NCBI RefSeq assembly: GCF_030128875.1
Contig: NZ_CP124620.1
Coordinates: forward strand, 4,262,501 to 4,326,500
Length of the DNA: 64,000 bases
Origin: Stenotrophomonas sp. BIO128-Bstrain
Lineage (GTDB): Bacteria; Pseudomonadota; Gammaproteobacteria; Xanthomonadales; Xanthomonadaceae
Direction of reading: 5' to 3'
How positions within the stretch are numbered: position 1 is the first letter of the stretch; every line of letters starts with the position of its first letter. The notes under the pieces are model-generated. The model had not been told where the DNA came from, searched no databases, and saw only the letters and a list, made by a program, of their open reading frames with translations. The translations under genes were made by a program, and so were the position numbers. Below, piece after piece: positions 9,720-57,841 of this stretch.

Positions 9720-11534
9720 TCAGCGCTTCATCGAACCGAAGAACTCGTCGTTGGACTTGGTGTTCTTCATCTTGTCGAGCAGGAATTCCATCGCGGCCAT
9801 TTCATCCATCGGATGCAGCAGCTTGCGCAGGATCCAGATCTTCTGCAGCAGTTCCGGTTCGATCAGCAGGTCTTCGCGACGGGTGCCCGAGCGGTTGATG
9901 TCGATCGCCGGGAACACGCGCTTTTCAGAGATGCGGCGGCTCAGGTGCACTTCGCTGTTGCCGGTGCCCTTGAACTCTTCGTAGATCACCTCGTCCATCT
10001 TGCTGCCGGTATCGACCAGCGCGGTGGCGATGATGGTCAGGCTGCCGCCTTCCTCCACGTTGCGCGCGGCGCCGAAGAAGCGCTTCGGACGGTGCAGGGC
10101 GTTGGCGTCCACACCACCGGTGAGCACCTTGCCGGAGCTGGGCACCACGTTGTTGTAGGCACGCGCCAGGCGGGTGATCGAGTCGAGCAGGATCACCACG
10201 TCCTTCTTGTGCTCGACCAGGCGCTTGGCCCGCTCGATTACCATTTCGGCGACCTGCACGTGGCGCGCAGCCGGTTCGTCGAAGGTGGAGCTGATGACTT
10301 CGCCGCGCACGGTGCGCTGCATTTCCGTCACTTCTTCCGGGCGCTCATCGATCAGCAGCACGATCAGGTGCACGTCCGGATGATTGGTGGTGATCGCCGT
10401 GGCCACCTGCTGCATCATCATCGTCTTGCCGGCCTTGGGCTGGGAGACGATCAGCGAACGCTGACCCTTGCCCTGCGGTGCCATCAGATCGAGGATGCGG
10501 CCGGTGATGTCTTCGGACGAACCGTTGCCGCGTTCCAGGGTGAAGCGCTTGCGCGGGAACAGCGGGGTCAGGTTCTCGAACAGCACCTTGTTCTTGGATG
10601 CTTCCAGCGGCTCACCGTTGATGGTGTCCACGATCGACAGCGCGAAGTAGCGCTCGCCGTCCTTCGGGAAGCGGATGCGGCCGGACAGGTGGTCGCCGGT
10701 GCGCAGGTTGAAGCGGCGGATCTGGCTGGGCGAAATGTAGGTATCGTCCGGGCCGGCCAGGTAGCTGGCTTCGGCCGCGCGCAGGAAGCCGAAGCCGTCC
10801 GGCAGGATTTCCAGCACGCCGTCGGCGGCAACGCCGTCGCCATGACGGGTCAGCACCTTGAGCAGGGCGAAGATCACGTCCTGCTTGCGGGCACGGGCCA
10901 CGCCTTCGGAGATCTGCAGCTGTTCGGCGATTTCCAGCAGCTTCTGTGCCGGCATGCGCTTGAGGTCACTCAGCGAATAGACCGGGAAGCCTTCGGGCAC
11001 GTTGGCCTGCTGGCTGCGCACGAACGGCTGCTGTTCGCCGTTGTCCTGCGGCATGCCGTCGTCGTTGTAGCGATCGCCACCGCGGTTGCGGTCACGGCGA
11101 TTGCGGAAACGGTCGCGGCGGTTGCCTTGGCCCTGACCCTGGCCTTGGCCCTGGTTCTGGCCCTGACCCTGACCCTGCTGGTACGGGTTCTGCCCGCCCT
11201 GCTGGTTCTGGTTTTGGTTTTGGTTTTGGTTCTGGTGCCGGCCATTCTGGTTGCGCTGGCCACCGTCGCCGGTGTCCTGCTGACCACCGCCCTGCGAGGG
11301 CGATGCGTCTCCACCGGCAGGAGCTGCCGGCGCCGATGCCTGCGGGGCTGCCGAAGGAGCAGCAGCCGGCGCCGGCGCGTCAGACGCGGCAGCCAGAGGC
11401 AGAGCGGGTTGTGAGGGGGGGGAACCTGCCTCGGCAGCGGTGTTGGCGGCGGCCTTGGCGACGCGCGGCTTGCGCACGCGCTTCTCGGCGGGCGCGTCGG
11501 CGCTCCCGGGTTCGGAAGTAGTGATATCGGACAA
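9720..11534 (-). CDS. rho: transcription termination factor Rho with long N-terminal extension
   Basis: A 604-residue hexameric RNA helicase that ends Rho-dependent transcripts. The conserved part starts near residue 190 ([20 protein letters not shown]), followed by the cold-shock-like primary RNA-binding domain ([25 protein letters not shown]), Walker A (QPKAGKTMM), Walker B ([18 protein letters not shown]), and Q/R-loop residues. The first about 185 residues are additional: Ala/Pro-rich, then Gln/Asn-rich repeats (about 88-140) and Arg/Asp/Gly-rich (about 143-165). The start is TTG 11534: an in-frame TAG lies 18 bases upstream and GAGGAA is well spaced. It lies downstream of trxA on the same strand, 222 bp apart. 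Confidence 0.95.
11122..11235. repeat. low-complexity coding repeat in rho
   Basis: The hexamer GGTTTT/GGTTCT is repeated in tandem (11202-11235), followed by CCCTGG/CCTTGG-type units (11122-11180). They encode Asn-Gln and Gly-Gln dipeptide runs. Such tracts can expand or contract in steps of two codons without breaking the frame. Confidence 0.7.
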
Positions 11535-56147: not shown

Positions 56148-56495
56148 ATGTCGCACATGTTGATCGAGCTCTACACCGCCACCCCCGCCTGGACCGCGCT
56201 GGACCCGGTGTCGCGCGGGGCGTTCTTCGCCCGCATCGGCGCCGGCATGCAGCACGTGGATCCGGCCCGCATCACGCCGGTGGCGATGGGCCGCATCGAA
56301 CAGGACGTTCCGCACACCACGGCCGAGCAGTTCTATGCGGTGTGGCAGTGCGCCGAACGGCTCGATGCCGATGCCTTGCTGGCCGCGATCGGCGCTACCG
56401 GGTGGCACGAGTACTTCACCACGACGCACGCGGTGGGGGCAGCAGGCACGCTGCAGCAGCACCTGGCCGAGCTGGCGGCGTTGCCGCGGGGGTGA
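56148..56495 (+). CDS. small protein of unknown function (DUF6616-like)
   Basis: A 115-residue soluble protein (MSHMLIELYTATPAWTALDP; ARITPVAMGRIEQDVPHTTAEQFYAVWQC). The start MSHxLIELYT and the conserved Phe-Tyr-Ala-Val-Trp segment resemble small dimeric alpha/beta-barrel-like families such as DUF6616; this is tentative. It follows the AlkC-like gene by 14 bp and is probably the third gene of the MarR operon. Confidence 0.7.
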   Translation: MSHMLIELYTATPAWTALDPVSRGAFFARIGAGMQHVDPARITPVAMGRIEQDVPHTTAEQFYAVWQCAERLDADALLAAIGATGWHEYFTTTHAVGAAGTLQQHLAELAALPRG

Positions 56496-56550: not shown

Positions 56551-56579
56551 TTGGCACCTCCAAACCCCTGTGTTATCAA
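56551..56579 (+). promoter_or_regulatory. putative aroG promoter
   Basis: TTGGCA (56551-56556), a 17-bp spacer and TATCAA (56574-56579). Transcription would start near 56586, almost at the leader-peptide ATG (56589), so the leader may be translated leaderless; no ribosome-binding site is seen before it. Confidence 0.55.
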
Positions 56580-56588
56580 TACTCCCCA

Positions 56589-56669
56589 ATGAACGCACGC
56601 CCCGCCAATTCCTACTTTTGGTATTACTTTCCGAAGCCACCGGCGGAGGAAGGCATGCGCTCACCCTGA
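56589..56669 (+). CDS. aroG leader peptide (aromatic-codon attenuator)
   Basis: A 26-codon frame reading MNARPANSYFWYYFPKPPAE then EGMRSP and TGA. Codons 9-14 are Tyr-Phe-Trp-Tyr-Tyr-Phe, a run hardly expected by chance in a short frame directly before a terminator and the first enzyme of aromatic biosynthesis. Ribosome stalling there when charged tRNA-Phe, tRNA-Tyr or tRNA-Trp is scarce should control the downstream hairpins. CCCGCC (56601-56606) can pair with GGCGG (56642-56646), and GGCGG can alternatively pair with CCGCC (56697-56701) inside the terminator stem, the antiterminator. Confidence 0.82.
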   Translation: MNARPANSYFWYYFPKPPAEEGMRSP

Positions 56670-56692
56670 AGAAACCTTCAGACGCATTCCCG

Positions 56693-56722
56693 AAAGCCGC
56701 CAGCGCACCTGGCGGCTTTTTT
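56693..56722 (+). terminator. aroG attenuator terminator
   Basis: AAAGCCGCCAG-CGCAC-CTGGCGGCTTTTTT: an 11-bp perfect stem, 5-nt loop and T-run located before, not after, aroG. It is 24 bp after the leader-peptide stop, as in trp/phe attenuators. Confidence 0.93.
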
Positions 56723-56767
56723 GTTGCCGCCGCGCTGGGGACCCCCACTTCCAAGGAGTTTTCCCCC

Positions 56768-57841
56768 ATGCCCCCGCACACCGATGACCTGCGCATCCGC
56801 AAGATCGAACCGTTGACCCCGCCGGCCCAGCTGCTGGCCATGCTGCCCTGCGACGATGAAGCCTCCGATACGGTCAGCGCCTCGCGCACGGCCCTGCACG
56901 AGATCCTGCACGGCCGCGATGACCGCCTGGCGGTAGTGATCGGCCCGTGCTCGATCCATGACCCGGTGGCCGCCATCGAATACGCTCAGCGCCTCAAGCC
57001 GCTGCGCGATGCCTACGCCGACGAGCTGGAAATCGTCATGCGCGTGTACTTCGAGAAGCCCCGCACCACGGTGGGCTGGAAGGGCCTGATCAACGATCCG
57101 GACCTGGACGGCAGCTTCAACATCAACAAGGGCCTGCGCGTGGCGCGCGGTCTGCTGCGCGACATCAACAAGCTCGGCCTGCCGGCCGGCGTTGAATTCC
57201 TCGACGTGATCTCGCCGCAGTACATCGCCGACCTGGTCGCCTGGGGCGCGATCGGCGCGCGGACCACCGAAAGCCAGGTGCATCGCGAACTGGCATCGGG
57301 ATTGTCGTGCCCGGTCGGGTTCAAGAACGGCACCGACGGCAACATCAAGATCGCTGCCGATGCGATTGGTGCGGCCTCCAACCCGCATCACTTCCTGTCG
57401 GTGACCAAGGAAGGCGGCACCGCCATCGTGGCCACCGCCGGCAACCCGGACTGTCACGTGATCCTGCGCGGCGGCAAGACGCCGAACTACGATGCCGACC
57501 ACGTGGAAGCGACCAGCCAGACGCTGGCCAAGTCGCACCTGGCCGCACGCATCATGATCGATGCCAGCCACGCCAACAGCAGCAAGAATCCGGAGAACCA
57601 GCCCAAGGTCATCGCCGACATCAACGCGCAGCTGGCCAATGGCGAAGAGCGCATCGTCGGCGTCATGGTGGAGAGTCATCTGGTGGCCGGCCGGCAGGAC
57701 CTGGTGGACGGCCAGCCGCTGACCTACGGCCAGAGCATCACCGATGGCTGCATCGGCTGGGACAGCTCGCTGGCGGTGCTGGAGAGCCTTGCCGAGGCAG
57801 TGCGGGCACGGCGGGCGGCGCGGATCAGCGAGGCGGCGTAA
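56768..57841 (+). CDS. aroG: DAHP synthase (type I, AroFGH family)
   Basis: A 357-residue 3-deoxy-D-arabino-heptulosonate-7-phosphate synthase, the first committed enzyme of the shikimate pathway (PEP plus erythrose 4-phosphate). ATG 56768 follows AAGGAG. Motifs: VVIGPCSIHDPVAA (metal Cys), MRVYFEKPRTTVGWKGLIND, GSFNINKGLRVARGLL, GARTTESQVHRELASGLSCPVGFKNGTDG, IMIDASHANSSKNP, and IVGVMVESHLVAGRQ. Feedback class cannot be decided by eye. An aromatic attenuator precedes it. aroQ of the same pathway lies at 29562-30011 on the other strand. Confidence 0.96.
   Translation: MPPHTDDLRIRKIEPLTPPAQLLAMLPCDDEASDTVSASRTALHEILHGRDDRLAVVIGPCSIHDPVAAIEYAQRLKPLRDAYADELEIVMRVYFEKPRTTVGWKGLINDPDLDGSFNINKGLRVARGLLRDINKLGLPAGVEFLDVISPQYIADLVAWGAIGARTTESQVHRELASGLSCPVGFKNGTDGNIKIAADAIGAASNPHHFLSVTKEGGTAIVATAGNPDCHVILRGGKTPNYDADHVEATSQTLAKSHLAARIMIDASHANSSKNPENQPKVIADINAQLANGEERIVGVMVESHLVAGRQDLVDGQPLTYGQSITDGCIGWDSSLAVLESLAEAVRARRAARISEAA

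Follow-up and report, generated by a model that had tools for sequence, protein, structure and literature searches.

An aromatic leader peptide and terminator conserved ahead of aroG in Stenotrophomonas and its relatives: a probable ribosome-dependent transcription attenuator

The window, a 64,000-nucleotide stretch of DNA from a Stenotrophomonas strain, contains a type I DAHP synthase gene, aroG, which is preceded by a short frame carrying six consecutive aromatic codons and by an intrinsic terminator (Table 1). The 26-codon frame, the aromatic codons, the terminator and segments 1, 2 and 3 were all located where an earlier note on this DNA had placed them, and position 56767, at which that note ended the region, is the final base ahead of the aroG start codon. 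The aroG product matched the AroG model NF006723 (573 bits, cut-off 568), TIGR00034 (538.1 bits, cut-off 173.2) and PF00793, and a search of solved structures confirmed the AroG family. The 140-nt leader RNA was predicted to fold with z = -4.25, none of 200 shuffled sequences folding equally well. A built-in scan for strict consensus sequences reported 0 terminators and 0 promoters; the failure to report the terminator was attributed to its T's, which here form part of the stem. Only one other run of five or more aromatic codons was found in the window, at 11203 on the plus strand. This run (11 codons) was rejected as an artefact, being antisense to a Q/N repeat in rho. Rho itself, encoded at 9720-11534 on the minus strand of the window, matches TIGR00767 over residues 187-603 (679 bits); its N-terminus carries a long extension in which Q, N, G, A and P are abundant.

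Table 1. Positions in the window of the features at the aroG locus
Feature	Position	Strand	Description
DUF6616 gene	56148-56495	+	upstream of the leader
Predicted promoter	56551-56580	+	-35-like TTGGCA 56551-56556, 17-nt spacer, extended -10 TGTTATCAAT 56571-56580; from sequence
Leader peptide frame	56589-56669	+	MNARPANSYFWYYFPKPPAEEGMRSP; ATG...TGA, 26 aa, without Shine-Dalgarno, probably near-leaderless
Control codons	56613-56630	+	Tyr-Phe-Trp-Tyr-Tyr-Phe, TAC TTT TGG TAT TAC TTT
Segment 1	56601-56606	+	CCCGCC, pairing with segment 2 possible
Segment 2	56642-56646	+	GGCGG, antiterminator 5' side, within the leader frame
Intrinsic terminator	56693-56722		11 bp, AAAGCCGCCAG-CGCAC-CTGGCGGCTTT; arms 56693-56703 and 56709-56719, loop 56704-56708, T's 56717-56722
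Segment 3	56693-56703	+	terminator 5' arm and antiterminator 3' side, core CCGCC 56697-56701
Segment 4	56709-56722	+	terminator 3' arm and T tract
aroG	56768-57841	+	type I DAHP synthase, 357 aa; NF006723, TIGR00034, PF00793

The conservation of this arrangement was assessed with a detector that looked, ahead of aroG, for a reading frame in which four or more of eight residues are aromatic and, downstream of it, for a hairpin bearing a T run. Three overlapping samples were searched, 61 genomes of the genus, 149 of the family and 121 of the order (Lysobacterales/Xanthomonadales), which together gave 103 distinct genomes with AroG. AroG was present in all 61 genomes of the genus and in 36 of the family, the other 113 of the 149 having no match to an AroG of the window's type; 26 matches were obtained from the 121 genomes of the order, one of them spurious. 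Leader and terminator were detected ahead of aroG in 103 of the 103 distinct genomes (by sample 61/61, 36/36 and 25/25 real matches). Loss of the aromatic run or of the terminator from a genome that keeps aroG, which had been named as evidence against attenuation, was looked for in these genomes of the order and was found in none. Applied to 183 aroG upstream sequences the detector gave 151 matches, compared with 1/183 on the reverse strand and 41/915 in shuffled sequences. The occurrence of leader and terminator before aroG is not due to chance. The control rates correspond to a false-positive chance of ~5% for a single match, so that less certainty attaches to lone matches, L051 and L054 among them.

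In a wider search the combination was present at 48 of the best 80 loci (of at least 590 stretches), eight from the window's order and 40 from elsewhere. Among these best 80, the carriers included Burkholderia, Paraburkholderia, Caballeronia, Massilia, Rugamonas and Janthinobacterium, as well as Bradyrhizobium, Mesorhizobium, Devosia and Methylosinus. The remaining 32 of the 80 loci, where leader and terminator were not detected, include all the Enterobacterales, Vibrionales, Azoarcus, Thauera and Methylotenera loci listed, and one (L049) with an upstream sequence too short to judge. An aromatic frame was seen at L069, from a Chloroflexota MAG, and at L039, but no hairpin with a T run was found at either.

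Transcription begins, as a rule of thumb, 6-9 nt past the end of the -10 hexamer, and by this rule the start site would fall at 56585-56588, only 1-4 nt ahead of the leader AUG. The motif TGnTA begins 16-18 nt ahead of the leader start in 81 of the 82 distinct upstream sequences from the order, against 3.7 expected from shuffling. A Shine-Dalgarno-like motif precedes the leader in 0/82 of the same sequences; one precedes aroG itself in 63/82. These data suggest that the leader is probably near-leaderless in the window's order, and lend sequence support to the earlier proposal that it begins at or near the transcription start. TGnTA as an extended -10 has been reported upstream of leaderless mRNAs in Bradyrhizobium japonicum, in the available part of PMC4842269. 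The claim is limited to the window's order, because TGnTA was found at the leader in none of 13 alphaproteobacterial loci and none of 26 beta and other loci; Shine-Dalgarno-like motifs were found at 0/13 and 2/26, respectively.

Pairing within the leader RNA was examined in an alignment of 58 sequences, in which segments 2 (GGCGG), 3 (CCGCC) and 4 (GGCGG) hardly vary. The earlier note had proposed classical, mutually exclusive pairings and suggested covariation among segments 2, 3 and 4 as a check. The terminator (3:4) covaries strongly, with 95.9% of 637 cells paired and double-sided changes in 28 cells compared with 8.9 in shuffles (0/500 as high); one of its pairs is G-C in 36 sequences, A-U in 21 and G-U in one. 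The antiterminator (2:3) is paired in 79.4% of 564 cells, its core pairs being kept in 55-58 of the 58 sequences, and its flanks contain 14 double-change cells, spread over five pairs, compared with 5.0 in shuffles (0/500). Thus the 3:4 and 2:3 parts of the proposal stood. The protector hairpin (1:2) can be drawn in the window; across the relatives it is paired in 65.0% of cells, no better than in shuffles, and it lacks covariation support. In many relatives segment 2 reads GCTGGCGG and has CTGGCGG in common with the terminator 3' arm, so that it competes with segment 4 for segment 3. The antiterminator of the window is weaker than that of its relatives, the sequence being CCGGCGG, with CC rather than CT ahead of segment 2, and not GCTGGCGG.

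The final aromatic codon ends a median of 11 nt ahead of segment 2 (n = 60 representatives; quartiles 11 and 11; 10-90% range 8.9-17). A ribosome on the leader was modelled in 57 of the 60 representatives by masking the RNA from -15 to +13 around the ribosomal A site and calculating the probability of 2:3 pairing for a transcript that does not yet include segment 4. When the A site lay on the run the modelled 2:3 probability averaged 0.82; it averaged 0.00 at 10-15 codons past the start of the run, and 0.46 when no ribosome was present. By position, it was 0.84-0.87 at the first four codons of the run, 0.30 at +7 and 0.05 at +9. For a ribosome waiting at the stop codon, which lies 20-odd nt beyond segment 2, the modelled mean rose again to 0.40 (near 1 in L017 and L146), and termination must therefore depend on either timing or 1:2 pairing. 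The modelled value on the run exceeded that at the stop codon by more than 0.1 in only 36 of the 57, and that without a ribosome in 34. Modelled stalls at codons -6 to -1 ahead of the run also favoured 2:3 (0.72-0.83; 0.76), and the geometry is therefore not specific to aromatic codons. What the model suggests is that a stall must not lie past the run, and not that aromatic codons alone would work. The averages varied little with the mask; the values for the window itself did vary, F10 and W11 being high with three of the four masks and Y9 and Y12 with one each.

Taken together, the analysis points to the aroG leader as a ribosome-dependent transcription attenuator acting on the first enzyme of the pathway, a reading to which a probability of nearly nine in ten was assigned. 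The attenuator is real and widely conserved, and very probably functional; conservation, RNA pairing and spacing all give good support to the earlier proposal that an aromatic leader attenuates aroG. Most likely, the speed of translation over the aromatic leader decides whether aroG is switched on. We infer that RNA polymerase would start a few bases ahead of the leader AUG and that a ribosome would load directly on the near-leaderless 5' end and translate the leader. If charged Phe-, Tyr- or Trp-tRNA were short, the ribosome would pause on the aromatic run; segment 2, left free, would pair with segment 3, the terminator would be blocked and aroG would be transcribed. When the tRNAs are charged the ribosome would clear the run and cover segment 2 while segments 3 and 4 are made, allowing the terminator to form and presumably to act in vivo.

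The amino acids in the run bear on which of the three would be sensed. Phe, Tyr and Trp are all present in the run of 46 of the 60 representatives (31/32 from the order, 8/8 alphaproteobacterial, 7/12 Burkholderiales/other beta or unplaced and 0/8 Oxalobacteraceae), or in 48 when the whole peptide is counted instead. The other 14 have Phe and Tyr without Trp: all eight Oxalobacteraceae (L008, L009, L012, L014, L015, L022, L027 and L052), five of the 12 other beta or unplaced and one of the order. The last of these, L170, carries Gly (GGG) in place of Trp (YYFGYYG), the single apparent loss of Trp in the order. Codon choice is unusual: among 173 Phe codons within or close to the runs of the 60 representatives the fraction of TTT is 0.79, compared with 0.15 of 302 in aroG, short loci contributing only part of aroG to the latter count.

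Somewhat less than even odds are given to an alternative in which attenuation operates but responds to just one or two of the three amino acids, Phe for example, the other aromatic codons being tolerated. Sensing of all three is suggested by the codons, and the absence of Trp from 14 of the 60 runs favours the alternative, while its presence in 31/32 representatives of the order and 8/8 alphaproteobacterial ones goes against it. The ribosome model is similarly divided. Modelled stalls gave similar mean 2:3 probabilities at Phe (0.84), Tyr (0.79) and Trp (0.87) codons, compared with 0.33 at other nearby codons (every second representative), a result that goes against the alternative; in the window, stalls at the last two codons of the run (Tyr13 and Phe14) gave no antiterminator, with 2:3 at or below 0.01 under every mask. 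There is also a precedent for the alternative in Corynebacterium glutamicum, where the AroR leader contains Phe-Tyr-Phe and precedes the DAHP synthase gene aroF (PMC11802643, PMC4046766); according to the accessible part of PMC11802643, Phe limitation acts on aroR-aroF and Tyr availability is without effect, though codons for both are present.

It is highly improbable that the terminator belongs to the upstream gene and that the small frame encodes a free-standing small protein. The DUF6616 gene does lie upstream on the same strand, but the terminator is found between leader and aroG in all 103 genomes, ten loci have a separate terminator, picked up upstream of the leader, and segment 2 is able to pair with a terminator arm. 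Moreover, the end of the peptide differs between clades while segment 2 is kept; in Massilia L022 a 1-nt deletion relative to L012 alters the peptide end and leaves the segment 2 RNA intact. Just as little credence is given to control of aroG by a metabolite-binding riboswitch or T-box with an incidental frame, for although the leader is structured and has a terminator, its conserved parts are the frame, segment 2 and the terminator, and no Rfam family reached its gathering threshold anywhere in the window. The sub-threshold Rfam matches were judged to be chance or terminator likeness: Phe_leader (RF01859; 22.7 bits, cut-off 55) was carried by the terminator, which resembles that of the family, and asX2 was weak (21.7 bits, cut-off 70).

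A tree of 96 AroG proteins was used to investigate the history of the proposed attenuator. On this tree the leader was clustered, requiring eight changes compared with 27 with shuffled labels. AroG from alphaproteobacteria (Devosia, Methylosinus, Mesorhizobium and Bradyrhizobium; 13 rows) and 22 rows from the window's order formed one clade (96/82) in which all have the leader, a grouping in keeping with aroG and its leader having been passed together from one class to another. L185 and L187, from the order and with leaders, fell with L058 outside that clade, in a group where 25 of the 28 rows have no leader. One gain alone is therefore insufficient, and at least six changes are forced by the starred branches. 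A covariance model was also searched against 274 genomes of the class, with strict filters that lose weak matches; 74 genomes had a match at E 0.01 or better, many weak matches spanning only the terminator end of the model. Of five matches with E <1e-6, three lie ahead of AroG genes from the window's order; the remaining two lie ahead of a different type I DAHP synthase gene. Twelve loci of weaker or new matches were read, nine of which have no leader; the other three were L203, L204 and an ilv leader, L192. L203 and L204 (genomes G413 and G529), from another family of the class, have similar aromatic leaders (MQSRNFFAFYFWFSVPGG... and MQTQRAYFFYFWFSPPAAER) and a terminator before a type I DAHP synthase gene. 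The L203 enzyme matched TIGR00034 with 536 bits and the AroG model with 542.1, under the cut-off of 568; L204 was judged by eye.

The genome of the window has one AroG match and one class II DAHP synthase (TIGR01358, 735.5 bits), and no aromatic leader was seen in the 420 nt upstream of the latter when three frames were read. A second PF00793 match in the genome was set aside as KDO-8-phosphate synthase, not a DAHP synthase. In several lineages of the gammaproteobacteria, TyrR and TrpR are treated as proteins that regulate aromatic genes (PMC5343134). Searches of the genome with one TrpR and one TyrR-type family found neither TrpR nor TyrR proper. The Trp_repressor match was rejected as TrpR, being of the YerC/YecD type (TIGR02531 53.0, cut-off 42.2; TrpR 23.9, cut-off 67.25), and the HTH_50 match was rejected as TyrR, being a sigma-54 activator (235.5 against a TyrR cut-off of 576). 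The YerC/YecD-type protein (L189, 1471-1791, minus strand) is encoded directly before hisG and is a candidate for the regulation of histidine genes. The apparent lack of TrpR and TyrR is in keeping with attenuation of aroG, yet aroG is one of two DAHP synthase genes. The suggestion that a single leader replaces the system of three isoenzymes with TyrR and TrpR was therefore overstated, as the class II enzyme is present without such a leader.

Among known systems, the aroR-aroF attenuator of C. glutamicum was reportedly described by Neshat et al. in 2014. As described in the accessible part of PMC11802643, it is alike in having an aromatic-codon leader before a DAHP synthase gene and ribosome-dependent attenuation, and differs in belonging to another phylum, in the ineffectiveness of Tyr and in that no Trp codon is named there. 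The pheL and trpL leaders of Escherichia coli, ahead of pheA and trp, also have control codons followed by a mutually exclusive antiterminator and terminator, but they are Shine-Dalgarno-led. In addition, each responds to one amino acid and controls genes of a terminal branch, as far as the available part of PMC11802643 describes them. Attenuators have been predicted for DAHP synthase genes in other orders and for other isoenzymes, and the likeness is drawn from table entries: Vibrio aroA(I alpha, Tyr)-tyrA, in a table drawn from a website of predictions (PMC1173090), and Shewanella aroF and aroH (PMC2659441), with an 'attenuator sensing tyr-tRNA' for aroF. The aroG case may itself be listed on the website cited in PMC1173090. 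In Sinorhizobium meliloti trpL-trpE(G) the small ORF is likewise leaderless, the transcript starting at the AUG, but it is described as concerning Trp only and trpE(G) (available parts of PMC7298713 and PMC10117765).

Multivalent ilv attenuators have, in one leader, codons for several amino acids of one pathway, and differ from the aroG leader in that these are branched-chain amino acids. No report of this aroG leader, or of a Phe-Tyr-Trp leader, was found in searches of open-access literature; in Naville and Gautheret 2010 (PMC2965389), aroG and DAHP are absent from the main text. As far as these searches reach, the aroG leader is new in its place and in its set of codons for three amino acids, and of a known kind.

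A broader joint reading is offered tentatively, and we consider it somewhat doubtful. The leaderless leader could serve as a three-input OR gate, opening aroG on a shortage of any one of charged Phe-, Tyr- and Trp-tRNA. Gate and aroG could have passed together, as a single cassette, among gamma-, beta- and alphaproteobacteria, with the gate taking the place of repressors that control separate isoenzymes. Termination may in addition set the leader free as a small RNA that encodes a free peptide, as with rnTrpL/peTrpL.

An aroG attenuator would provide a simple answer to how entry into the aromatic pathway is tuned in Stenotrophomonas, Xanthomonas, Burkholderia and some rhizobia, a single RNA element perhaps monitoring whether as many as three tRNAs are charged. 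Being conserved, near-leaderless and covered by no Rfam family at cut-off, it would be an addition to the known attenuators, and may be of use in annotation and in the metabolic engineering of aromatic compounds. The ilv leader L192 lies in the genome of the window (G000:C1:159151-159283, minus strand); it is a branched-chain leader (...IHSLLVLVLITQPTGAGRTGV) with the same layout as the aroG leader, located before ilvC (NF004017, 512 bits) and an acetolactate synthase gene, and the end of its frame copies the terminator 3' arm (CAGGTGCGGG).
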